Origin: Halofilum ochraceum
Lineage (GTDB): Bacteria > Pseudomonadota > Gammaproteobacteria > XJ16 > Halofilaceae
NCBI RefSeq assembly: GCF_001614315.2
Contig: NZ_LVEG02000008.1
Location: 186,001-250,000 of the forward strand
Length of the DNA: 64,000 bases
Reading direction: 5' to 3'
Below the pieces are notes generated by a model. It was not told where the DNA came from, made no database searches, and saw nothing but the letters and a program-made list of their open reading frames with translations. This document shows positions 35,287-64,000 of this stretch, one piece after another. The translations under genes were made by a program, and so were the position numbers. Numbering within the stretch: the first letter of the stretch is position 1; every line of letters begins with the position of its first letter.

Positions 35287-35832
35287 TCAACCCGTGCCCG
35301 AATTGGCCCGGAACCACGGCGGCGCCCCCTGGCGCCGCTGCCACCAGCGACTCGCCCCCAGCAGCACCAGCGACAGCGGAACCAGCCATGCGAACAGGGC
35401 CGCGAAGGCACCCAGCCCCGGTATGCCGAGTAACAACAGCAGGCTCGGCGCGCAGCATGCACCGCCCGCGGCGAGCGCCGGCACGGCCGCCAGCACGCCG
35501 CCACCGCGGCCGGCGAGTCCGCATACCGCGGGCCGTTTCCACAGCATCCACCCGCCGTCGATATTCAGCGCGAGCAATACGCCGAGGGTGGCGGCGATCA
35601 GTATGTTCAGCGGGCTGATCAGCCACACGATGTGGTCCGCCTGCAGCATGGCGATGGCCTCGAACTGGAACACGACCCGCTGATCGAGCCAGAGCCCGGG
35701 ATCCCCCAGCGTCACCGACCAGACCGGCCGCGTCGCCGTGGAGAGATCGCCGAGCGCATAGAGATAGCCGAGCGCGTAGACGAGCCCCACCGCGGCGGCC
35801 GTGATTCTGACGTCAGGTCTCACCCGTGGCAT
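35287..35832 (-). CDS. Membrane protein with Cys-Cys motif, unknown function
   Basis: This 181-aa protein has about five hydrophobic segments. The middle contains a GGACCAPSLLLLLGIPGLG block, in which adjacent Cys before Pro lie at a helix start, recalling metal or thiol carriers; that is only an analogy. The start overlaps the stop of the DUF3179 gene by 20 bp, so it is the last gene of the sigma/EAL operon. No family is recognised. Confidence 0.75.
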   Translation of the reverse strand: MPRVRPDVRITAAAVGLVYALGYLYALGDLSTATRPVWSVTLGDPGLWLDQRVVFQFEAIAMLQADHIVWLISPLNILIAATLGVLLALNIDGGWMLWKRPAVCGLAGRGGGVLAAVPALAAGGACCAPSLLLLLGIPGLGAFAALFAWLVPLSLVLLGASRWWQRRQGAPPWFRANSGTG

Positions 35833-36832
35833 CGTCGATCACCGCGGTATCGGGGTAGAACGCCGCCCAGGCGAACCACATCGCCCGGAAGGCGTTCACC
35901 GGCTCCATTTCATTGCGGCCGTCGAAACGCGGCCCTTCCGGACCGAAGTCGATGGCACCGGGATCGATCGCGGCATCGCCGCGATAGACCCAGCCCGTAT
36001 CGAGGCCGGGATCGTGGATGATGACGTAGCGCGTACCGTCGATCCGACGTTCGATGACGCCCGCGTCCCGGAGCGTTCCGAGATCCACGGCGACCGCATG
36101 ATCGCGGCCCCGGAAACCGAGGACTTCCTGCTTGGGCGGATAGCGGTCACTGTCGTTCATTACGGGGAACATGCGGCTTGAATCCGGCGCGTAATAGCCG
36201 TTGACGGGGTTGTAGTTCCCATAGGGGTCCTGCTGGTAGTTCCGCATGATGCCCGTATCCGTCGACAGCACCCGCGTATCCGGGTAGCGCTCCTTCCAGC
36301 GCCCCCATTCGGTGAACACGGTCCGGAATTCCCGGAGCCCCTCGCCGGCCAGTGGCCCGGAGATGCCCGCGGCCAGGATCTGCGGCCAACGGCTTTCGGT
36401 CTCGCGGTCGTACATCACGAGGTTGCTGTTCAGCAGCTTGCCCGACACCCCGAACTCCACGCCGTTGCGATGGAAGCCGAGTCCGGTACCGGTCAACGGG
36501 CAATACGTGACGCTCACCGGATCGCCGGCCACGGTATCGTTCACGATCTCGTGCCAGACCAGGATCCGCTGCGGGTAGGCGCGCGCCTCGCCGTTGATAT
36601 AGATACCGATGACCCGGTCATTGTCATCGAGGAACGCGTCGGCGGCCTCGGCATCCTGGAACACCGGGTCATCGATCGAGGGAATCCCGTCCTTGGAGGC
36701 GCCGGTGCGGATATTGTCCCGGTACTCGGACAATGGTGCGTTCATGAGTTTCGCTTGATCGGTTGGTGGCTCGGCGATGGCTCCTGATGTTCCGACCATG
36801 AGCAATGCCGCCAGCAGTCGCGTGTATCGCAT
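35813..36832 (-). CDS. DUF3179 exported protein
   Basis: This 339-aa protein begins MRYTRLLAALLMVGTSGAIA, a signal peptide. The DUF3179 core follows: PSIDDPVFQDA..FLDDNDRVIGIYINGEARAYP, WHEIVNDTVAGDPVSVTYCPLTGTGLGF with its conserved Cys, and SGKLLNSNLVMYDRETESRWPQ. Family function is unknown; the Cys and His suggest a periplasmic enzyme or metal protein. It lies 94 bp downstream of the DUF547 gene and overlaps the membrane gene after it. Confidence 0.9.
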   Translation of the reverse strand: MRYTRLLAALLMVGTSGAIAEPPTDQAKLMNAPLSEYRDNIRTGASKDGIPSIDDPVFQDAEAADAFLDDNDRVIGIYINGEARAYPQRILVWHEIVNDTVAGDPVSVTYCPLTGTGLGFHRNGVEFGVSGKLLNSNLVMYDRETESRWPQILAAGISGPLAGEGLREFRTVFTEWGRWKERYPDTRVLSTDTGIMRNYQQDPYGNYNPVNGYYAPDSSRMFPVMNDSDRYPPKQEVLGFRGRDHAVAVDLGTLRDAGVIERRIDGTRYVIIHDPGLDTGWVYRGDAAIDPGAIDFGPEGPRFDGRNEMEPVNAFRAMWFAWAAFYPDTAVIDDATGET

Positions 36833-36926
36833 GTTGACCTCCTGAGAGATTGCCTGCGCCTGAACGCTCTGACCGGAGCGTGGCGCAAAAGTGCCAACGG
36901 GCCCGAGGGCGAATCGGCAGATGGGA

Positions 36927-37739
36927 TCACCCGCCAGCGGGATAACGATCGTTGAGGCGCCAATCGAAGGGATCGAATTCGACGTTGATGTCCTCGTCCG
37001 CGAGGGCGTCTGCGCGATTGTCATCGAGGTGGCGGCGTACGAACGCGAGCGCATCGTCGATCGAACCGCCGAAATCGCCGGTGTACCATCGGAACACCCG
37101 CGGCAGGCGGGCAGTGCGACCGGATGGATCGACCCGTACGGTTGCCGCGAGCTGTTCGCGGGTGGCGTTATCCAGTGCGGTTTCGGCCTGGGCTACCGGG
37201 ATTGCCCGGAGTGGCGGAGAGGACATGTTCGCCGTGTACAGCGCGAAGTGAATGCGTGGATCGATCGTGCGGAGACTCCAGCGCAGACGCGGGTCACCCG
37301 AAGAGAACAGGGGTTTGAGACCCATATACCGGCGCGCGTTTCCGCGCAGAATGCCGTGTTCGATTGCATCGAGCGTCAAAGCCTGTCCCGCTACCCGGTA
37401 ATACGGCCCGGTGAAGAAGTCTTCCCGTTCGCGCACCGAGGTGGCGATCGGTCCCGAGAGCACGATGTGCAGCGTGAGCAGGTTATACAGGTTGATCCAG
37501 AAGGCGACGGCGCTGTGCGGATCGGCGAGCCGGTCCGGGTCCAGGTCCGCGAGTGCGCTGGCCGTGTGGCGGAGTGCTTCGTATTCATCGGAGACCGCGG
37601 CCGCGCCGTAATCGACCCGATGCGAGGATGGGGCACAGTAGCGTGCGGCGATCCGTTCCAGCGCGCTTTCCACCGCGGTGACCGGGGTATCCGTGCCCGG
37701 CGTTCCTGGCGTCTCCTGATTGAGCTGCTCGCCCATCAT
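36927..37739 (-). CDS. DUF547 protein
   Basis: This 270-aa protein carries the DUF547 signature AVAFWINLYNLLTLHIVLSGP, then LTLDAIEHGILRGN and DPRIHFALYTANMSSPPLRAIPV, with a conserved Asn, His and Cys-free centre. Some DUF547 proteins have a papain-like fold, but no function is established. No clear signal peptide is present from the ATG at 37739. The start overlaps the EAL gene stop by 4 bp, indicating translational coupling. Confidence 0.88.
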   Translation of the reverse strand: MMGEQLNQETPGTPGTDTPVTAVESALERIAARYCAPSSHRVDYGAAAVSDEYEALRHTASALADLDPDRLADPHSAVAFWINLYNLLTLHIVLSGPIATSVREREDFFTGPYYRVAGQALTLDAIEHGILRGNARRYMGLKPLFSSGDPRLRWSLRTIDPRIHFALYTANMSSPPLRAIPVAQAETALDNATREQLAATVRVDPSGRTARLPRVFRWYTGDFGGSIDDALAFVRRHLDDNRADALADEDINVEFDPFDWRLNDRYPAGG

Positions 37740-39484
37740 CGCTTTATACCGCCTGCGATGCCGGCCTCTATGGGCCGTAACAGCGCGTCACGGCGTGCGG
37801 CACGCGCGTCACGGCGGTTCGTCTCTACAATCGCGTGCGCCGGTAGGGCGCGGGCATACAGAAAGCCCTGGAGTTCGTCACAGCCGAATTCCCGCATACG
37901 CCGCGCCTGCTGCTCGGTTTCGATGCCTTCGGCGGTGATTTTCAGTGACAGACTCCGCGCAAGGTCGGTGATCGCCCGCACGATGCGGCAGCCTTCCGCC
38001 GTATCCAGCCCCCTCACGAACGAGCGATCAATCTTGATGCGATCGACCGGCAGGCGGCCGAGATAGCCGAGTGAGGAATACCCGGTGCCGAAATCGTCGA
38101 GCGCGAAATGGACACCGCGTGCACGCAAGGCGGTAATCTGCGCCAGCGCTCCCTCCAGGTTGGCCAGCAGGGACGTCTCGGTGATCTCGAGTTCGAGTGA
38201 TTCCGGCGCGACGCCGTGGCGTTCAAGAGCGCGTGCGACGTCGTCTTCGAGTGTGCCGCTGACGAGTTGTTCCGCGTCCACATTGACGGACACCGTGAGG
38301 TCCATGCCGGATCGGTTCCAGCTCGCTACGGCCGCGACGGCGCGATCGAGCATAATGCGACCGATATCCGCAATCCGGCCACTATCGGCCGCCATCGGTA
38401 TGAATGTTCCCGGACTGATCGCGCCGTGCTCCGGATGCTCCCAGCGCGCCAGTGCCTCGGCGCTCACCCACTGGAGCGAATTCGCGCCGATCCGCGGCTG
38501 GAAATGGGCGTCCAGTGCCCGCTGATTGATCGCATCCTCCAGAGCGAGCGAGAGTTTTGCGATGTCCCGGAGCTCTTCACTGGATTCGGTCGCGTTCACG
38601 CGGGCACTGCCCGTCTGGGCTCGGCTCGATCGTGAAGCGGTCTCGGCCGCGTGCAGCAGGCCGGTCGGGGAATCGTTACCGCAGCCCCAGGCAATGCCCA
38701 TGGTCACCGTCGGTATCAGTGAATGGGCACCGCAGGGGATTGGAGACTGTAACTGCTGCCAGATGTCATCCAGTCGCTTGTCGATCACTTCGGCTGGTGC
38801 AGCGGTCACGAAAGCGAATCGGTAGGGGCTGATGACGCCCGCGGCGGCGCGCGTATCGGCGCCGGGCCGGATGCGATCGCTGATGGCACGGCGTACGGTC
38901 TCACCTACAGCGGAGCCGAGCGCGACCTCCCAGCGCGACAGCTCGCGGATCTCGATCACGGCAACGGCAACGCGGTCCTCGCTGCGAACGCGTTCCAGCA
39001 GGTGAGCCAGTTCCCGGGACAGGCCCTCGCGGTTGAACGCCCCGGTGATGGCGTCACGGTGAGCCCGCCGCACGAGGTGGGCATTGGCCTCGCGCAGGGT
39101 CTGAACGATTTCGCCCGTCAGACTGCCGATTTCATCGAAATGGAGTCCGGACGGTGGCTGCAGCGGTTTCCCCATTCGATATCCACGAACCATCTCCGTC
39201 ACCTGCGCGATCGGCCGCACCAGACACCGGGCCATGAGAGCGAAGCCGGCCAGACTCGCGCCCGCCGCCAGCACAAGCAACGTCACGGGTCCGATGTAGG
39301 CGGATGGATCGAGTTCGACCAGAGAGGCGACGAAGACGAATGGGGTCACCGCCAGCAGGGCCGCGAATGTCAGTTTCGTCGTCAGTGATCGTCGGATGCC
39401 GGGGATCCCACGGAGTCCGCGTGAAGCCAGGCACACGGCCTCATCGCCGGAAGGTGCTTTGCGGTAGTGGCCGGCCCCGGTCAT
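37736..39484 (-). CDS. Membrane EAL phosphodiesterase with degenerate GGDEF domain
   Basis: This 582-aa protein has two membrane helices (~35-90), a short HAMP-like segment, a degenerate GGDEF domain and an EAL domain. The GGDEF signature is replaced by SPYRF (~219-223), so cyclase activity is not expected. The EAL domain keeps its key residues: EALARW (~343), N in SVNVDAEQL (~401), ELEITE (~432), DDFGTGYSS (~463), IKID (~483) and AEGIE (~518). It should hydrolyse cyclic di-GMP. The start at 39484 lies 4 bp after the sigma factor stop. No extracytoplasmic sensor domain of notable size is present. Confidence 0.9.
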   Translation of the reverse strand: MTGAGHYRKAPSGDEAVCLASRGLRGIPGIRRSLTTKLTFAALLAVTPFVFVASLVELDPSAYIGPVTLLVLAAGASLAGFALMARCLVRPIAQVTEMVRGYRMGKPLQPPSGLHFDEIGSLTGEIVQTLREANAHLVRRAHRDAITGAFNREGLSRELAHLLERVRSEDRVAVAVIEIRELSRWEVALGSAVGETVRRAISDRIRPGADTRAAAGVISPYRFAFVTAAPAEVIDKRLDDIWQQLQSPIPCGAHSLIPTVTMGIAWGCGNDSPTGLLHAAETASRSSRAQTGSARVNATESSEELRDIAKLSLALEDAINQRALDAHFQPRIGANSLQWVSAEALARWEHPEHGAISPGTFIPMAADSGRIADIGRIMLDRAVAAVASWNRSGMDLTVSVNVDAEQLVSGTLEDDVARALERHGVAPESLELEITETSLLANLEGALAQITALRARGVHFALDDFGTGYSSLGYLGRLPVDRIKIDRSFVRGLDTAEGCRIVRAITDLARSLSLKITAEGIETEQQARRMREFGCDELQGFLYARALPAHAIVETNRRDARAARRDALLRPIEAGIAGGIKR

Positions 39485-39488
39485 TGAC

Positions 39489-40268
39489 CTATGATCCCCG
39501 GGGCGGCGCTTCAGATCCTTCGAGGACGGGACGGATGCGCTCATCGATCGCACCGCGCGCCCGTGCAATCCGGGAACGCACGGTCCCGATCGGACAATCC
39601 ATGACGGACGCGATCTCTTCGTAGGACAGCCCGTTCATCTCCCGCAGTGTCAGTGCCTCCCGCAGGCATGCAGGCATCGCTTCGACCGCATGGTCGATCG
39701 CCTGTCGGACCTCTCCGGTCGCCGCGTGCCGTTCGGGGGTGTCCGTGTCGCGCAGTAGCGCGGCGTCATCGAAGCGTTCGGCCTCCGCCGGATCCATGCC
39801 GCCGCGCACCGCACCGCGCCGGTCCATTGCGATCCGGTGGTTGCGGGCCGTGTTGACGGTGATCCGGTACAGCCAGGTATAGAACGCGCTGTCGCCGCGG
39901 AATCGGGCGAGACCGCGGTAGGCCCGCAGGAACGCCTCCTGGGCGACATCCTCCAGCTCCGACGGGTCGGCGATATGCCGTCGCAACAGCGCGGCCACGC
40001 GGTGCTGGTATTTCTTTACGAGCAGATCGAAGGCCGCGTTCTCGCCGCGCTGCACGCGTTCAATCAGGGCCCGATCGACCGCGTTTTCGTCCGGCTCGCC
40101 CGCGATGGCGGTCCGCTCCCCGGGTTTCTCCGAAATGTCCGGATCATTGGCGGGATGATCGCCGCAGGCGTTCGTCTCGGGTCGGGCGGGCCGCGCGGCG
40201 GGCGAATCGCGTTCAGTGGTACCCGGCCATGCGAGCCGGTTGAACGATTCAACGGTAGCGGTCGCCAT
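39489..40268 (-). CDS. ECF sigma factor, RpoE-like, with N-terminal extension
   Basis: This 259-aa sigma factor has region 2 (AFDLLVKKYQHRVAALLRRH, LEDVAQEAFLRAYRGLARFRGDSAFYTWLYRITVN) and region 4 (REALTLREMNGLSYEEIASVMDCPIGTVRSRIARAR) typical of the RpoE-like ECF group. About 62 extra residues, rich in Pro, Glu and Asp, precede region 2. A GGGGAGA site supports the ATG at 40268. No RseA-like anti-sigma gene follows; the next gene is the EAL protein. Its upstream region carries one copy of the shared TACG-N10-TACGTA motif (40310-40368), suggesting autoregulation or control by a common activator. Confidence 0.93.
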   Translation of the reverse strand: MATATVESFNRLAWPGTTERDSPAARPARPETNACGDHPANDPDISEKPGERTAIAGEPDENAVDRALIERVQRGENAAFDLLVKKYQHRVAALLRRHIADPSELEDVAQEAFLRAYRGLARFRGDSAFYTWLYRITVNTARNHRIAMDRRGAVRGGMDPAEAERFDDAALLRDTDTPERHAATGEVRQAIDHAVEAMPACLREALTLREMNGLSYEEIASVMDCPIGTVRSRIARARGAIDERIRPVLEGSEAPPRGS

Positions 40269-40309
40269 TTCCTGTCTCCCCGTTTATGGATCAATTGATG
40301 ACAGGTGGG

Positions 40310-40368
40310 AGTCTGCGGGGAGGGCCGCGAACCGGAAATTCGTGGTTATACGTACGCAACCGACCGTA
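40310..40368 (-). promoter_or_regulatory. Shared promoter motif, copy S (sigma factor gene)
   Basis: Read on the minus strand: TACG at 40368-40365, then 10 nt, then TACGTATAACCACGAATT (40354-40337), then CAGACT at 40315-40310. This matches copies A and B in spacing exactly. CAGACT as a -10 element would place the transcript start about 35 nt before the sigma ATG. Confidence 0.8.
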
Positions 40369-40454
40369 CATCCGACCGAAGATCCGGCGCGATGCACCGC
40401 GATCGCCGGTCCAGCGGTAGCGGTTGCCCAAGCGACTCGCCCAGGGCGTTGGAT

Positions 40455-40513
40455 TACGGACTACCGCGTACGTACAACCGCCAATTCAACGGGATCGTCA
40501 CTGCGTCCAGGCT
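40455..40513 (+). promoter_or_regulatory. Shared promoter motif, copy A (94-aa exported protein)
   Basis: TACGG at 40455, TACGTACAACCGCCAATT at 40469-40486, and CAGGCT at 40508-40513. Compared with copy B, 17 of 18 bases of the middle block are identical, and the 14-nt and 39-nt offsets are the same. The predicted transcript start is about 43 nt before the ATG at 40563. Confidence 0.85.
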
Positions 40514-40562
40514 TTGAATCGCCAAACGGCAGAATCCAAACCCTGGAATGGAGGTTATCGCC

Positions 40563-40847
40563 ATGAATCCGATGAAACGGTATGTGACGGGGCGCAGGTT
40601 GTCTGCGCTTGCTCTCGCGGGGGCACTCGCGGCGGCAACGGCATCCGAGGGCGCATTCGCGATGCTTACGTCCACTGACGTTGAGCACATGAATCGTGAA
40701 GCTGAGCTCAGTCAGGGCAAAGTAGGCCTCGTCGATCTCGGCAGGCCGGGTCCAGTGATTCTGGAACCCGAGCCCCGTTCCGGTCCGTTGGACTACGACC
40801 CGGTCGCTGGGCGTGTCGGCCGCATGCCGGTTGACCGGGAGCAGTGA
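40563..40847 (+). CDS. 94-aa exported protein, GAFAM family (paralogue A)
   Basis: The ATG at 40563 sits behind GGAGG (40550-40554). The protein has a signal peptide with a GAFA end, then MLTSTDVEHMNREAELSQGKVGLVDLG and a Pro-rich acidic tail ending VAGRVGRMPVDREQ. A second protein of exactly the same length at 62132 shares the GAFAM(L/V)T..D junction, a Gly/Pro middle and a VGR near the end. No known family is recognised. It lies divergent from the sigma factor gene and upstream of the 343-aa protein gene. The mature protein is small (~60 aa) and presumably periplasmic. Confidence 0.8.
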   Translation: MNPMKRYVTGRRLSALALAGALAAATASEGAFAMLTSTDVEHMNREAELSQGKVGLVDLGRPGPVILEPEPRSGPLDYDPVAGRVGRMPVDREQ

Positions 40848-40890
40848 TCACGGTCCAACGGCCCGAACGCCCATCTTTCATTTACACCGG

Positions 40891-40918
40891 CCGGGGAGGC
40901 GCCTTGATGTCTCCCCGG
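40891..40918. terminator. Hairpin after paralogue A
   Basis: A perfect 8-bp stem (CCGGGGAG with CTCCCCGG) and 12-nt loop lie 44 bp past the stop. No T tract follows, so it may be an attenuator, a processing site or a weak terminator. Confidence 0.5.
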
Positions 40919-41052
40919 TCTATACCTGCCTCCACCACGAGTGGCCGCGACCCGTCGCGGTTGCGGGGCGCATCCAGGTCAATACGCCCGATCGCCGGAA
41001 CCAGGTGAAAAGTCTCAACGATCCACGTGTCGCTACCAAAGCACCTCGCCGA

Positions 41053-41112
41053 TACGGGGAAGCACGTACGTACAAAATCGAATCGCTGGACGTCGGATTC
41101 CGGTTCCAGACT
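41053..41112 (+). promoter_or_regulatory. Shared promoter motif, copy C (343-aa protein gene)
   Basis: TACGG at 41053, TACGTACAAAATCGAATC at 41067-41084, and CAGACT at 41107-41112. TACG to TACGTA is again 14 nt; the distal block is one base further away than in the other copies, and AACC is AAAA here. It lies about 100 bp before the ATG at 41211, so the leader would be longer. Confidence 0.7.
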
Positions 41113-41210
41113 GTTGTTGACGGACGGCGGAAATCCGCCCGTTGCTGAACCCGATACACAAGTCGCGCATCTCCAGGTGCTGCGACGCTTTACCTGGTAG
41201 GAGGTTCGAT

Positions 41211-42242
41211 ATGAGCCATTTGCTGAAATCTACGGCTGTCGGATGGAGTCAACATCGCTGGTGGGCCCGAGCGGGAATGGCCATTGCGATCGGTGGTTTT
41301 CTGGCTGTCGCGGCCGGGAGCCTGCCGGCGGCCGACGCGGATGTGGAGAAGGGGAAAAATCCCTTGCGTATAACCGAAGTCAGTCAGTCACCGGGCAACA
41401 TCACCTACTGGGTGCTGCCGGGACCGCGTGTACTCGAGGAAGAGACCTTCGGCACGCCGGACGATCCGGAAATGCTTTTCCGGCCGAAACTCAAGGCGGC
41501 TCAACAGGCCGGCGGACCACCGGCGGTGCCGGATACGCTGAAGAGCCTGCCCTTTCTTGTGGGCATACCGGAAAAGGCCCGGACGGTAAGCGACGACGGT
41601 ACCTGGGTGTTTGATAAGCCGACGGCGTTCTCGAATAACGCCCGGATCATCAATGGGCAGTTCGAAACGACGATGCGGGATGTCGTGCGCGAGGATACGC
41701 CCGGCAAACCTGGCAACACGCCGGATACCGCCTCGTTCGAAGCCCAGTTCAACGATCCTGCCGGCAACGAATATCGCGTTGTCCTGGATCATGTCGTCAA
41801 ACCGCCGTTCCCCGGTTACGAGACCCAGGGCGGCGTGTTCACCGAGGACTTCCTGCACGGCAACACCGGCACGGGCACGCCGTTGATGCCCAAACAGTAC
41901 ACCTATGCCGCGTGGTGGGGGCTCGGTGAGCTCTACATCAACGGGGAGAAAGTGGACGACCACCGCGTGATGCATCTGATGACCACCGAAGTCGTCCGCA
42001 ACCGCGACTATAACCTCGTATTTTCGGACGACCTGCCTCTGGGGGCGGACGAACGCCATATCCGGAATCAGGAGCACCATACCCACCTGATGATGCCCCC
42101 GGTGCGCGGTGTCCCGGGCAAGGGGCCGGTGTTCGATCCCGTACCGACGGCATTTGAACTGCCGAACGGGAAAAAGCAGCCGTTCCTGCACATCATGTTC
42201 GAGCAGGACGAGCTGTCCTCGCGCGAGCCGACGCGTTCGTGA
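41211..42242 (+). CDS. Unclassified 343-aa exported protein
   Basis: The ATG at 41211 follows TAGGAGG. A signal peptide (AGMAIAIGGFLAVAAGSLPAADA) precedes a mature domain of ~300 aa that looks beta-rich. Notable blocks are GNITYWVLPGPRVLEEETFG, NNARIINGQFETTMRDVV, FTEDFLHGNTGTGTPLMPKQYTYAAWWGLGELYINGE, DDHRVMHLMTTEVVR and NQEHHTHLMMPPVRG (His at ~289, 290 and 292). The His/Met block and the cupredoxin gene downstream suggest a copper or redox role, but no family is recognised. The gene precedes a cupredoxin, a membrane protein and an MHYT protein with short gaps. Confidence 0.8.
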   Translation: MSHLLKSTAVGWSQHRWWARAGMAIAIGGFLAVAAGSLPAADADVEKGKNPLRITEVSQSPGNITYWVLPGPRVLEEETFGTPDDPEMLFRPKLKAAQQAGGPPAVPDTLKSLPFLVGIPEKARTVSDDGTWVFDKPTAFSNNARIINGQFETTMRDVVREDTPGKPGNTPDTASFEAQFNDPAGNEYRVVLDHVVKPPFPGYETQGGVFTEDFLHGNTGTGTPLMPKQYTYAAWWGLGELYINGEKVDDHRVMHLMTTEVVRNRDYNLVFSDDLPLGADERHIRNQEHHTHLMMPPVRGVPGKGPVFDPVPTAFELPNGKKQPFLHIMFEQDELSSREPTRS

Positions 42243-42331
42243 TCGGCCCGGCGTCCACGGCCACGGGTCGTGGACGCCCCTTTGCCGTGTGAACGCGATC
42301 CCGCTATCCGAAAAACCGGGAGGTAAGACTC

Positions 42332-42709
42332 ATGCGACGCTTCAATGCGTACAGGGGAAAAATCGACAGGATCGTCGGACTGGTTCTCGGTCTCGGCATG
42401 ATGGGGCTGACCGCCAATGCCCAGGCCGAGGATATCGAAACCGTAAAGGTCGTTGCGAAAGAGTTTGAATTTCAGCCGGCGACGATCGAAATGGAGGCCG
42501 GAGAAACGGTGCGCCTGAAGCTGGTCAACAACGGACAGCTCAGCCACAACCTCCACTTGCGGGGGATTTCCACGAATACGGAAACGATTCAGGCGGGCAA
42601 CAGCGACACGGTGCGCGTGACGGCATCCGAGAATGGGACGCTGGAATTCTATTGCGACGTTCCGGGCCATGAGCAGGCGGGCATGACCGGCAAAATCGTA
42701 GCGGAGTGA
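42332..42709 (+). CDS. Plastocyanin-like cupredoxin
   Basis: This 125-aa protein has an N-terminal signal peptide (GLVLGLGMMGLTANAQA) and a type 1 copper fold. Copper ligands are visible: H72 in GQLSHNLHL, and C108, H113 and M118 in FYCDVPGHEQAGMTG. That is the plastocyanin/amicyanin pattern, so it likely carries electrons in the periplasm. A GGGAGG site precedes the ATG. It follows the 343-aa protein gene by about 90 bp; donor and acceptor are unknown. Confidence 0.9.
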   Translation: MRRFNAYRGKIDRIVGLVLGLGMMGLTANAQAEDIETVKVVAKEFEFQPATIEMEAGETVRLKLVNNGQLSHNLHLRGISTNTETIQAGNSDTVRVTASENGTLEFYCDVPGHEQAGMTGKIVAE

Positions 42710-42766
42710 CGACATTACGGTCACTCGGGATCCTTCAAGTACGCGAGAACAATCCGGAGATCAAAG

Positions 42767-43255
42767 ATGGAGTGGTATAAAGCGGGGGCCGTGGGTGCCC
42801 TTGGCAGTCTGATTATTCTGGTCGTAATGTTTGTGGGCATCGAGATCACCGGGTTCGCCCCATTCAATCTTCCGCCATCGGCGGCATTCCTCAAAGCACT
42901 GGGTATACCGGTCCAGCCGCTGGCGGTGATTGCACACTTTATTTATGGAATCGCCTGGGCGGTGATTCTCTATGCCCTGTTCGAATCGAGAACGAACATC
43001 CTGCGTGGTCTTGGCCTCGCGGTGCTCGTCCAGTGGCTGCTCCTGATGCAGTTGGTGTACTCACCGATCATCGGTTGGGGCGTTTTCGGCGCCGCTGCCG
43101 GTTCACTACCACCGGATGCGCCGCTCGCGCTGTCATCGCAGGTGAAATACATCGCCCTGACGTTCGTCCTCCACGTCGTTTACGGTGGGCTGAATGGCTG
43201 GTTGATCCCATTATGGACCGGCGGTGATCGGCGACTGGCAAGGGCGGCGGCATGA
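42767..43255 (+). CDS. Four-helix membrane protein with paired HxxYG motifs
   Basis: This 162-aa protein has four hydrophobic segments. Two similar motifs, HFIYG (~57-61) and HVVYG (~145-149), lie in the two halves and suggest internal symmetry and possible haem, copper or gas-binding His residues; the meaning is inference. The stop overlaps the MHYT gene start (ATGA). No family was confidently recognised. Confidence 0.75.
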   Translation: MEWYKAGAVGALGSLIILVVMFVGIEITGFAPFNLPPSAAFLKALGIPVQPLAVIAHFIYGIAWAVILYALFESRTNILRGLGLAVLVQWLLLMQLVYSPIIGWGVFGAAAGSLPPDAPLALSSQVKYIALTFVLHVVYGGLNGWLIPLWTGGDRRLARAAA

Positions 43256-44007
43256 CCCATTCAGTCGGGGATTACAGCCTCCTGCTTGTGTTCGGATCCT
43301 GGCTGGTCGCGGTAGCCGGAGCGTCCGTCGGCCTTTTTTCAAGCCAGTACGTGCGCGACTCCGACGGACGAGTGCGGGTGGCGTGGACGATGTTCTCGTC
43401 ACTGGTGATTGCCGGCTGCATGATGTGGTCGGCCCATTACGTCGGCATGTTGGCGTACCAACCCGATTGGCCGATCACGTTTGACGTGCACATGACCTGG
43501 CTGTCATTCGTCATGCCGGTCGTATTCGCTGCGGTCGCGGTCCTGATCGTGACACGGCATCCGGAGTCGCTTGCCGTGCTTACGGTCGGTGGTGCGACGA
43601 TGACGATGGGACTGGTCGCATTGCATTATGCGGGCGTGGCGGCGATGCGTACGCCGGCGCACATCACGCATGATGCCACCCTGGTGGCGGTTTCCATCGT
43701 GCTGGCATTCGTGACCTCGACGGGCGCATTGTTCGTGATGGTCAAGGTGCAGGGGTGGCACAGGTATCTCGCCGTACCTCTGATGGGGTTGGCCGTGTGC
43801 AGCATGCATTACACGGGTATGGCGGCGATGGAACCCGTCCGAAGGAGTGGTTCCATCGAGTATTTCGAAGGCGCGCTGACGCACGGCATGTTGACCACCT
43901 GGGTCGTTTCCGCGACCGGGGCGGTCATTATGCTTGGGGTTCTGCTTGGCCTGGCGGGATATCTCGACCGTGCGTCAACGCACAGTCGTCGGCAGGGAAG
44001 CCTCTGA
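43252..44007 (+). CDS. Stand-alone MHYT-domain membrane protein
   Basis: This 251-aa protein has about seven membrane helices and three MHYT motifs: AHYVGM (61-66), LHYAGV (124-129) and MHYTGM (185-190), with Met and His nearby in helices. MHYT domains have been proposed to bind copper and sense O2, CO or NO; usually they are fused to GGDEF/EAL or kinase domains. Here there is no output domain, but a membrane EAL protein is encoded in the divergent operon. It is translationally coupled to the preceding membrane gene. Confidence 0.9.
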   Translation: MTHSVGDYSLLLVFGSWLVAVAGASVGLFSSQYVRDSDGRVRVAWTMFSSLVIAGCMMWSAHYVGMLAYQPDWPITFDVHMTWLSFVMPVVFAAVAVLIVTRHPESLAVLTVGGATMTMGLVALHYAGVAAMRTPAHITHDATLVAVSIVLAFVTSTGALFVMVKVQGWHRYLAVPLMGLAVCSMHYTGMAAMEPVRRSGSIEYFEGALTHGMLTTWVVSATGAVIMLGVLLGLAGYLDRASTHSRRQGSL

Positions 44008-44122
44008 AGCCCGCTGCGAATGTGCCATCATCTGGCAAGCCCCGGCGCAGTGTATGAATTCTGATCCGCCGGGAGTAGCGAACGCGGCGGTGCGTCAGAC
44101 GGTTCTCGCGGCTTGAAACGCC

Positions 44123-44698
44123 TCAGAGCTGGTAGCCTAACTCCAGCATGACGATGTCGAGCCCGGGGTTCGGTGAGGCGAAGCCGGCGTTCGAGGAATG
44201 CCGAACGCGCAATCCGAGGTGCCATCGCCGTTCGGCGCCCAGCTCGTAGCCGAGTGTCGCGTGCGTGGTGAAGTGCCACAGACTGCCGAGATCCGAGCCG
44301 GCCACCCGCTGCTCGCTGACGTACGCGATACTGGTTCCCGCCTCGAGGAAACCACGCTCACCGAGCGGCCAGGGACGGAAGCGCCATGCCGGACCGAAAT
44401 GCGTGGTGTAGACGTTGTCGTTATCGGGGTCGGCGTTCGTCCAGAGACTCAGCGCGGCTTCGTAGTGCATGTCGTCGCCGATCCAGCCGAGCCAGACTGG
44501 CGTCGATTCCGGTTCGAACGTCAGTCCGAGCGCACCGCCATCGATGTCGCCGGCATCGGCGGGCACCCCGCTGCGAAGCCGCACGCTGTCAAGTTGTGCC
44601 GCTTGCAGTGTAGTCGTGATGGGGAAAAGGCTGGCCCCCGCAAGTGCTGCAGCCGCCATTGCGGTTTTTCTTCTGGATCCCCGAACCGGCATCTTCAT
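44123..44698 (-). CDS. PagL-like lipid A 3-O-deacylase
   Basis: This 191-aa protein has a signal peptide (TAMAAAALAGASLFPITTTLQAAQ) and an outer-membrane beta-barrel ending in LELGYQL. The PagL signature RHSSNAGFASPNPGLD is present: catalytic His (H167) and Ser (S169) are in place. The third catalytic position, Glu in Pseudomonas PagL, aligns with D181 here. It should remove the 3-O acyl chain from lipid A if active. The gene is convergent with the MHYT gene. Confidence 0.88.
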   Translation of the reverse strand: MKMPVRGSRRKTAMAAAALAGASLFPITTTLQAAQLDSVRLRSGVPADAGDIDGGALGLTFEPESTPVWLGWIGDDMHYEAALSLWTNADPDNDNVYTTHFGPAWRFRPWPLGERGFLEAGTSIAYVSEQRVAGSDLGSLWHFTTHATLGYELGAERRWHLGLRVRHSSNAGFASPNPGLDIVMLELGYQL

Positions 44699-62027: not shown

Positions 62028-62086
62028 TACGTGGAAGCGCTTACGTAGAACCGCCAATTACGCGCGCGGCCGCCGATCTCCAGACT
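62028..62086 (+). promoter_or_regulatory. Shared promoter motif, copy B (second 94-aa protein)
   Basis: TACG at 62028, TACGTAGAACCGCCAATT at 62042-62059, and CAGACT at 62081-62086. Spacing is identical to copies A and S. A TCCAG-CT--GAA--GCCA block after it also matches copy A. The distance from motif to ATG is 73 nt here and 77 nt in copy A. Confidence 0.85.
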
Positions 62087-62131: not shown

Positions 62132-62416
62132 ATGAAAACCGAGAATCGTCGCAACACCCGTAACTTCGTCCTTCCGACCACACTGCTCGCCACGGCATTC
62201 GTGACGGCACTCGCGACTCAGGGTGCGTTCGCGATGGTCACCGAACACGACCGCGAAACCAGGGCGACCGAAGCCAGTGAATCGGGCGTGCTGATCGTCA
62301 GTGGCCAGGGTCCGCGCGGCGACGTGAAATACGTCCGCCCGGATACGAAGGTCAAGACCGTCGGCTACGAGATCGGCGGTCCGGTCGGGCGGCTGGTGAA
62401 GAACCCGGCCGAATGA
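62132..62416 (+). CDS. 94-aa exported protein, GAFAM family (paralogue B)
   Basis: The ATG at 62132 follows AAGGAG. The signal peptide (VLPTTLLATAFVTALATQGAFA) is followed by MVTEHDRETRATEASESGVLIVSGQGPRGDVKYVRPDTK and a tail GGPVGRLVKNPAE. Total length is 94 aa, equal to paralogue A, with the same GAFAM(V/L)T junction and a VGR near the end. The upstream control region is nearly identical over the conserved blocks. It lies between selO and a two-component system on the other strand. Function unknown. Confidence 0.82.
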   Translation: MKTENRRNTRNFVLPTTLLATAFVTALATQGAFAMVTEHDRETRATEASESGVLIVSGQGPRGDVKYVRPDTKVKTVGYEIGGPVGRLVKNPAE

Positions 62417-62737: not shown

Positions 62738-63391
62738 TCAGGCTCCAGGACTTCCTCTCCCGTCCACCGTCGGGCTCCAGTCACGATAACGGTTTCCGGC
62801 GAGCACCAGCCGGACCATTTCGGGCGCATTGCGCGCGCCCAGTTTGTCGAGAATGCGGCCACGATGGACCTCCACCGTGCGCGTACTCATCTCGAGTTCG
62901 TAGCCGATCACCTTGTTGAGTTTCCCCGCGAGAATGCCCTCCATGACCTGCCGCTCGCGCGGCGTCAGCCGCTCCAGCCGCTGGTCGATATCGGCGGACG
63001 CGGCCTCGCGTGTGCGGCGCTCCCGGTCGGCCACGATGGCCTCTTCCACGCGCGCGAGCAGCGAATCGTTGTCGAACGGCTTCTCGAGGAAATCGAGCGC
63101 ACCCGCGTTGACGGCTTCGACCGCCATCGGGATGTCGCCATGGCCGGTAATGAAGATGATGGGCATGCGGATCTCGCGTTCGGCGAGTTCGCGCTGCAGT
63201 TCAAGCCCGTTCATTCCGGGCAGGCGGACATCCAGGATGAGGCAGCCGGCACTGTCCCGGGCGACCCGGTTGAGCAACTCCTCGGGTGTCTCGAACGATT
63301 CGGCGGGATAACCCGCCGTCGTCACGAGGAATGAAGTCGCTTCACGGACGTCGGGGTCATCGTCGACGATGTAGACCTGTTCACTGCTCAT
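62738..63391 (-). CDS. FixJ-type response regulator
   Basis: This 217-aa protein has a receiver domain (YIVDDDPDVREATSFL, phosphorylated Asp D54 in LILDVRLPGMNG, TGHGDIPMAVEA, EKPFDN) and a LuxR/FixJ helix-turn-helix (LTPRERQVMEGILAGKLNKVIGYELEMSTRTVEVHRGRILDKLGARN). The kinase gene overlaps its start on the same strand. The nearest divergent gene is paralogue B, whose promoter motif contains the palindrome TACGTA. LuxR/FixJ proteins bind short palindromes, so this regulator is a candidate for the shared sites; that is inference. Confidence 0.92.
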   Translation of the reverse strand: MSSEQVYIVDDDPDVREATSFLVTTAGYPAESFETPEELLNRVARDSAGCLILDVRLPGMNGLELQRELAEREIRMPIIFITGHGDIPMAVEAVNAGALDFLEKPFDNDSLLARVEEAIVADRERRTREAASADIDQRLERLTPRERQVMEGILAGKLNKVIGYELEMSTRTVEVHRGRILDKLGARNAPEMVRLVLAGNRYRDWSPTVDGRGSPGA

Positions 63392-64000
63392 GCCGCCTCC
63401 TTCTTTTGCGCTGCCGCTGCCGGTATCCGGATCCGGAAGAGGGCGCCGCCACCCTCGGCATCTCCGGCCTCCACCGTTCCGCCGTGCGCCTCGACCAGCG
63501 AGCGTACGATCGCCAGCCCGAGGCCGGTGCCGCCGCTGCGGCCGGTCACCAGCGGCTCGAAGAGATGGTGCCGTTCCTCCGCGGGCAGACCGGGCCCGCT
63601 GTCTTCCACCGTGAGTTCGGCTTCGTGGTCCGCCTCTATGGCACGGGTGGTCACCCGCACCCAGCGCAGGCGGTCGCTGGGCGCTTCATGGACCGCGTCT
63701 AGGGCGTTCTGCAGCAGGTTGACGACCACCTGGCGGATCGCGACCGGGTCAACCTCGACCATCAGCGGCCGCGATGCCCGATCGCTGGTCAAGCTGACCC
63801 GCTGACGCCGGTATTCCGGCACGGTGAGTTCGATCGCTTCGCAGGCGAGCGTGTTCAGGTCCGAACGCACGCGTTCACCATCGCCGGTGCGGAGGAACGT
63901 CCGCACGCGCCGGACAATTGCGGCCGCCCGTTCGTTCCCCTTGACCACCCGCTCGAGCGCGTCGGCGACCTCGTCCGGTGGCCGGCCGTCGCGCAGCATC
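63388..64000 (-). CDS. Sensor histidine kinase, C-terminal part (cut by window end)
   Basis: The frame is open to 64000, so the N-terminus is outside. The visible part shows the dimerisation region end (ERVVKGNERAAAIVRRVRTFLRTG) and the ATPase domain: N box RQVVVNLLQNALDAV, G1 VEDSGPGL, G2 GGTGLGLAIVRSL. The stop overlaps the regulator start by 4 bp (ATGA). Pairing with a FixJ-type regulator suggests a FixL/TodS-like kinase. The ATG at 63999 is internal, not a start. Confidence 0.9.
   Translation of the reverse strand, partial: MLRDGRPPDEVADALERVVKGNERAAAIVRRVRTFLRTGDGERVRSDLNTLACEAIELTVPEYRRQRVSLTSDRASRPLMVEVDPVAIRQVVVNLLQNALDAVHEAPSDRLRWVRVTTRAIEADHEAELTVEDSGPGLPAEERHHLFEPLVTGRSGGTGLGLAIVRSLVEAHGGTVEAGDAEGGGALFRIRIPAAAAQKKEAA

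Follow-up and report, generated by a model that had tools for sequence, protein, structure and literature searches.

A predicted FixJ-like regulon with a doubled promoter site and a second RpoE among its proposed targets in Halofilum ochraceum

The FixJ-dependent fixK promoter carries a TAAG element near -64 and CSNAATWT near -33, is protected from DNase I at -69/-44 and -57/-31, and FixJ itself has the SELEX consensus GTAMGTAG (PMC4999443). The fixK promoters of Sinorhizobium and Bradyrhizobium resemble those in the window, the 64,000-nucleotide stretch of DNA analyzed here, in their TACGTA/GTAMGTAG core. If CAGRCT is the -10, the elements near -64 and -35 would also agree closely in position, and the two overlapping protected regions would correspond to two overlapping predicted sites in the window promoters. 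FixL-FixJ and the window share the regulator sequence family, but differ in the kinase (PAS-haem FixL as opposed to a MASE1 kinase) and in the targets found for the window regulon, which include no nif or fix genes. The comparison supports a window regulator that acts like FixJ at fixK, without the pair being a FixLJ system. TtrSR likewise employs a FixJ-family regulator, and its regulator model was the second-best NCBIfam regulator model for the window protein; however, the score of 165.7 bits was far below the 290-bit cut-off and tetrathionate reductase genes were not seen nearby. The envelope stress system RpoE-RseA-RseB has an RpoE-family sigma factor in common with the window, where this factor is, in contrast, a second copy with a predicted response-regulator site in its promoter. 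Bufferins, finally, chelate excess copper, and their survey reports sigma/anti-sigma genes without mention of two-component systems (PMC12452194). The bufferin (gig) copper operons (DUF2282-DUF692-DUF2063-DoxX) share the DoxX gene type with the window regulon, and those of relatives contain the orthologous kinase/regulator pair. Bufferin genes were not found in the genus: no DUF2282 protein was detected in three congeneric genomes, and of the bufferin operon, which is defined by a DUF2282 precursor and a DUF692 enzyme, DoxX alone is present.

The first-pass annotation of the window had described four copies of a motif consisting of TACG, ten nucleotides, TACGTA and a downstream CAG(A/G)CT. All four were present at the coordinates in Table 1. 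The distance from TACGTA to CAGRCT was 39 nt in every one except the copy at 41053, where it was 40 nt. The total of four did not stand because a fifth copy lies beyond the window. With up to one mismatch, TACG-N10-TACGTA matched the window eight times, whereas shuffles had 0.55 matches on average and never more than 4. The genome was covered by pattern searches and by selected stretches. Searched genome-wide, as the annotation had recommended for a longer pattern that includes CAGRCT, TACG-N10-TACGTA had six exact matches in 3.64 Mb, of which four were the named copies and two were without AA, AAT and CAGRCT. The full pattern TACGTANAANNNNNAAYN{19,24}CAGRCT, built from the four copies with their AA, AAT and CAGRCT elements, had five matches in the genome and none for the reversed control. 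These were the four copies and a fifth at C8:251139, ~1.1 kb past the window end before a DoxX gene, and all were located between C8:226310 and C8:251183, i.e. in one 25-kb region. A position weight matrix separated the five copies (39.6-47.2 bits) from the next best site in 69 kb (9.7 bits), but since it was built from these five and two congener copies it is not an independent test. Judged from comparative sequence evidence, it is very probable that the five copies serve as promoters in a single regulon, controlled by the FixJ-type two-component system that the kinase and regulator of Table 1 make up. This regulon appears real and FixJ-like, its unusual points being the second RpoE as a predicted target and the doubled site.

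Table 1. Promoter copies and genes of the proposed regulon (window positions unless a contig is given)
Feature	Coordinates	Strand	Remarks
Promoter copy 1 (ECF sigma operon)	40310..40368	-	distal site 40368-40353 TACG-N8-CGTA; proximal 40354-40338 TACG-N8-CGAAT; -10 CAGACT 40315-40310
Promoter copy 2 (small exported protein A)	40455..40513	+	distal site 40455-40470; proximal 40469-40485 TACG-N8-CCAAT; -10 CAGGCT 40508-40513
Promoter copy 3 (343-aa protein/cupredoxin operon)	41053..41112	+	distal site 41053-41068; proximal 41067-41083 TACG-N8-CGAAT; -10 CAGACT 41107-41112; spacing 40
Promoter copy 4 (small exported protein B)	62028..62086	+	distal site 62028-62043 (CTTA right half); proximal 62042-62058 TACG-N8-CCAAT; -10 CAGACT 62081-62086
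Promoter copy 5 (DoxX gene)	C8:251125-251183		outside window; divergent to sensor kinase gene
GGDEF-EAL protein	37736..39484	-	follows sigma gene directly, probably on one transcript with it; inferred start
ECF sigma factor	39489..40268	-	second RpoE-family paralogue; no adjacent rseA; proposed target
Small exported protein A	40563..40847	+	94 aa; proposed target
343-aa protein	41211..42242	+	proposed target
Cupredoxin	42332..42709	+	Cupredoxin_1, weak CopI similarity; downstream of 343-aa gene
Small exported protein B	62132..62416	+	94 aa; proposed target
FixJ-type response regulator	62738..63391	-	receiver and GerE/LuxR HTH domains, 217 aa; proposed to bind all copies
MASE1-HisKA-HATPase sensor kinase	63388..64000	-	cut by window end; whole gene C8:249391-251037

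The description of the motif as TACG and TACGTA with loose AACC/AAT extras gave way to a different anatomy. Each copy consists of two overlapping near-palindromic 16-bp sites, both inverted repeats, offset by 14 bp with an overlap of 2 bp and followed after ~22 nt by CAGRCT. The distal unit reads (T/C)ACG-N8-C(G/T)TA overall and TACG-N8-CGTA in three window copies, the proximal unit TACG-N8-C(G/C)NAT overall and TACG-N8-C(G/C)AAT in the window copies. We re-read the sites as imperfect 16-bp inverted repeats of the form TACG-N8-CGNA(T), because orthologous kinase loci in another order share that unit. The doubled site was present only in the window's genus, and single-site versions precede the orthologous kinase/regulator operons of the other order. 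Taking CAGRCT as the -10 places TACG at -65, TACGTA at -51 and AAT at -37 in the window promoters. This previously proposed -10 is supported. In the orthologous operons, ordinary sigma70-like -10s lie at the same 39-40 nt from the half-sites. A predicted transcript start ~35-43 nt before the start codon held for three genes, while for the 343-aa gene, whose ATG was corrected to 41211, the distance would be ~92 nt. No match to an ordinary sigma70 promoter was obtained in 39300-44500, as expected for activator-dependent promoters.

Orthologous kinases were encoded in 18 of the 47 genomes of the other order (that of G322), and sites preceded either the kinase gene or the bufA-bufB-bufC operon containing it (G322, G369, G370, G372 and G376). 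These sites read TACGGGAAAACCCGTA, TACGTAGTCTTACGGAT, TACGTATTCCTACGCAT or a close variant, with their first base 39-40 nt before TAGACT, TATGCT or TAATCT. The pattern TACG-N8-C(G/C)NAT-N21-24-(C/T)ANNCT, whose -10 part was relaxed after some of the orthologous promoters had been seen, matched nine times in 306,578 strand-bases of the 18 loci, and every match was within 250 nt upstream of a kinase or bufA start. Several of the nine come from near-identical relatives, so that they represent about five independent lineages. Approximately half of the orthologous promoters had altered left half-sites (TAAGG, TAGGG), and no convincing site was found for the two distant orthologues in G074 and G203. 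At loci L082, L105, L109, L110 and L111 of the other order the MASE1-kinase/FixJ-type regulator pair is situated inside a bufferin operon (DUF2282-DUF692-DUF2063, DoxX).

The FixJ-type response regulator of the window is the most likely binder of the sites. It is a FixJ-family member by its Pfam matches to Response_reg (4.3e-30) and GerE (5e-18), and its best solved relative is FixJ (5xso, 1.6e-51). FixJ (NF006900) was also its top NCBIfam model, at 240.9 bits below the curated cut-off of 255, which sets it apart from FixJ proper. The MASE1-HisKA-HATPase kinase had no PAS match and reached 157.5 against the cut-off of 850 for the FixL model; it is thus not FixL. No site was evident before the window's own kinase gene. 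That one of the other LuxR/FixJ-family regulators of the genome, in which nine GerE/LuxR-type matches were counted, binds the sites and the adjoining pair is a bystander appears very unlikely, as two of the five copies flank the kinase/regulator genes and sites precede the orthologues of the pair in the other order.

The first-pass annotation had centered the regulon on the ECF sigma factor and left open whether an activator or the sigma factor itself recognizes the motif. The sigma factor belongs to the RpoE family (TIGR02939, 273.6 bits vs. a curated cut-off of 236.15) and is 61% identical to the canonical RpoE of the genome, with a nearly identical region 4. The canonical gene (C1:724164) is followed by a pair of rseA- and rseB-like reading frames; rseA and rseB are absent beside the window sigma gene, which has the GGDEF-EAL gene downstream instead and hence does not form an RpoE-RseA-RseB operon. 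Because region 4 is almost unchanged, the paralogue should read RpoE-type promoters. Only three loose matches to these were detected in 69 kb, none at the motif promoters. It appears very unlikely that this sigma factor reads part of the motif, with AACC/AAT as -35 and CAGRCT as -10, and thereby autoregulates its regulon. Autoregulation is common among ECF sigma factors, and the sigma gene's own promoter has the motif, in the middle of three copies, but a GGAACTT-type target is expected from the near-canonical region 4. Furthermore, two promoters of congener G002 carry the motif although canonical RpoE is its only protein above the family cut-off, so that the motif is independent of the ECF sigma factor. 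At the loci of orthologous kinases and regulators the -10 resembles TANNNT, and the -35 region is not conserved. Neither the central role nor the motif recognition suggested for the sigma factor was therefore borne out, whereas the activator option is supported by the half-sites at constant distance from the -10 in the orthologous operons. The sigma factor would be a target of the regulon and probably does not recognize the motif. Downstream of its gene, the GGDEF-EAL gene, DUF547 and two further frames are closely spaced on the minus strand (35287-39484), and the regulator-type promoter of the sigma gene may drive a long operon across this region.

The genus was represented by three genomes and was the sole genus of its order in the genome set compared. 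Conservation upstream of orthologues, another check recommended in the annotation, was observed for the B and DoxX promoters, both kept in G002 with conserved site blocks and CAGACT, while the spacer between site block and CAGACT of the DoxX promoter has diverged. The 343-aa gene was absent from G002. Congener G001 encodes a more distant kinase (50%), preceded by TACG-N8-CCGAT and, 39 nt on, CACACT. Among 84,980 named genomes the four-part pattern had one credible match, the B promoter of a congener (L055, an uncultured Ectothiorhodospiraceae MAG contig that is the counterpart of G002); the rest look like chance. That the copies are merely recently duplicated DNA, as common ancestry of two promoters might be proposed from the paralogy of proteins A and B (37% identity over 73 aa), is the most remote reading and largely refuted, since no alignable flanks were seen around the copies, similarity between copies is limited to the sites and the -10, each copy precedes a different gene, and G000 and G002 share the blocks despite the diverged DoxX-promoter spacer.

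Under the preferred reading of a FixJ-type regulon, the phosphorylated regulator would occupy the two sites as neighboring dimers, one at about -65 to -50 and the other at about -51 to -35. It would thereby activate sigma70 polymerase, the housekeeping form, for which these promoters have a poor -10 and lack a recognizable -35. Its targets would be the second RpoE with the GGDEF-EAL protein, the two small exported proteins, the 343-aa/cupredoxin operon and DoxX. A single signal-responsive regulator thus probably induces the joint expression of a spare stress sigma factor, of small exported proteins and of a copper-type protein, and in the predicted cascade from kinase to regulator to RpoE paralogue the response would reach a second layer via the latter. 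The signal may be guessed to be copper or envelope stress. A broader and rather doubtful interpretation is that the MASE1/FixJ-type pair is an undescribed conserved copper/envelope-stress regulator of bufferin-DoxX operons in one gammaproteobacterial order, which in the window's genus took over a duplicated RpoE lacking an anti-sigma factor. If true, a two-component system would drive an RpoE regulon transcriptionally and not via RseA proteolysis. The analysis provides an uncharacterized kinase/regulator family with a concrete candidate DNA site, promoter geometry and target list, and links this family to DoxX and cupredoxin and, in relatives, to bufferin operons. It would also take compound promoters of the fixK type beyond rhizobial nitrogen fixation, into a gammaproteobacterium in which nif targets are not obvious, and suggests a route for the rewiring of a duplicated RpoE.

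The 343-aa protein had no match in Pfam or NCBIfam, a profile search of solved structures returned nothing, and its predicted fold was uninformative (mean pLDDT 31). Homologues were identified in seven other gammaproteobacterial genomes, with one match partial, and the cupredoxin gene was next in four of those read. Conservation of the motif did not extend to these orthologues, as none of the six upstream regions checked contained a site, and the 343-aa target is thus specific to the genus. Across the 343-aa family, H216, H255, M257, E260, H292, H327 and M329 are invariant, and these His, Met and Glu residues together with the cupredoxin neighbor suggest metal binding.

Additional single-site matches were noted elsewhere. 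At G000:C2:22222-22266 (L118) a site with 39 nt to CATGCT is located 78 nt before an AhpD-like peroxidase gene, a possible sixth target, and is divergent from a redoxin gene. At loci L132 (G000:C19:73711-73820, minus strand) and L146 (G002:C43:15397-15521, minus strand), the two genomes have a TACG-N8-CGNAT site with 39 nt to TACCCT. In each, the site precedes ~60 conserved nucleotides with a hairpin-forming AGCTTTGG(A/G)CAGAAGCT and a G+C-rich terminator. This element lies upstream of a rhomboid-like gene and may represent a small RNA or a leader that belongs to the regulon.
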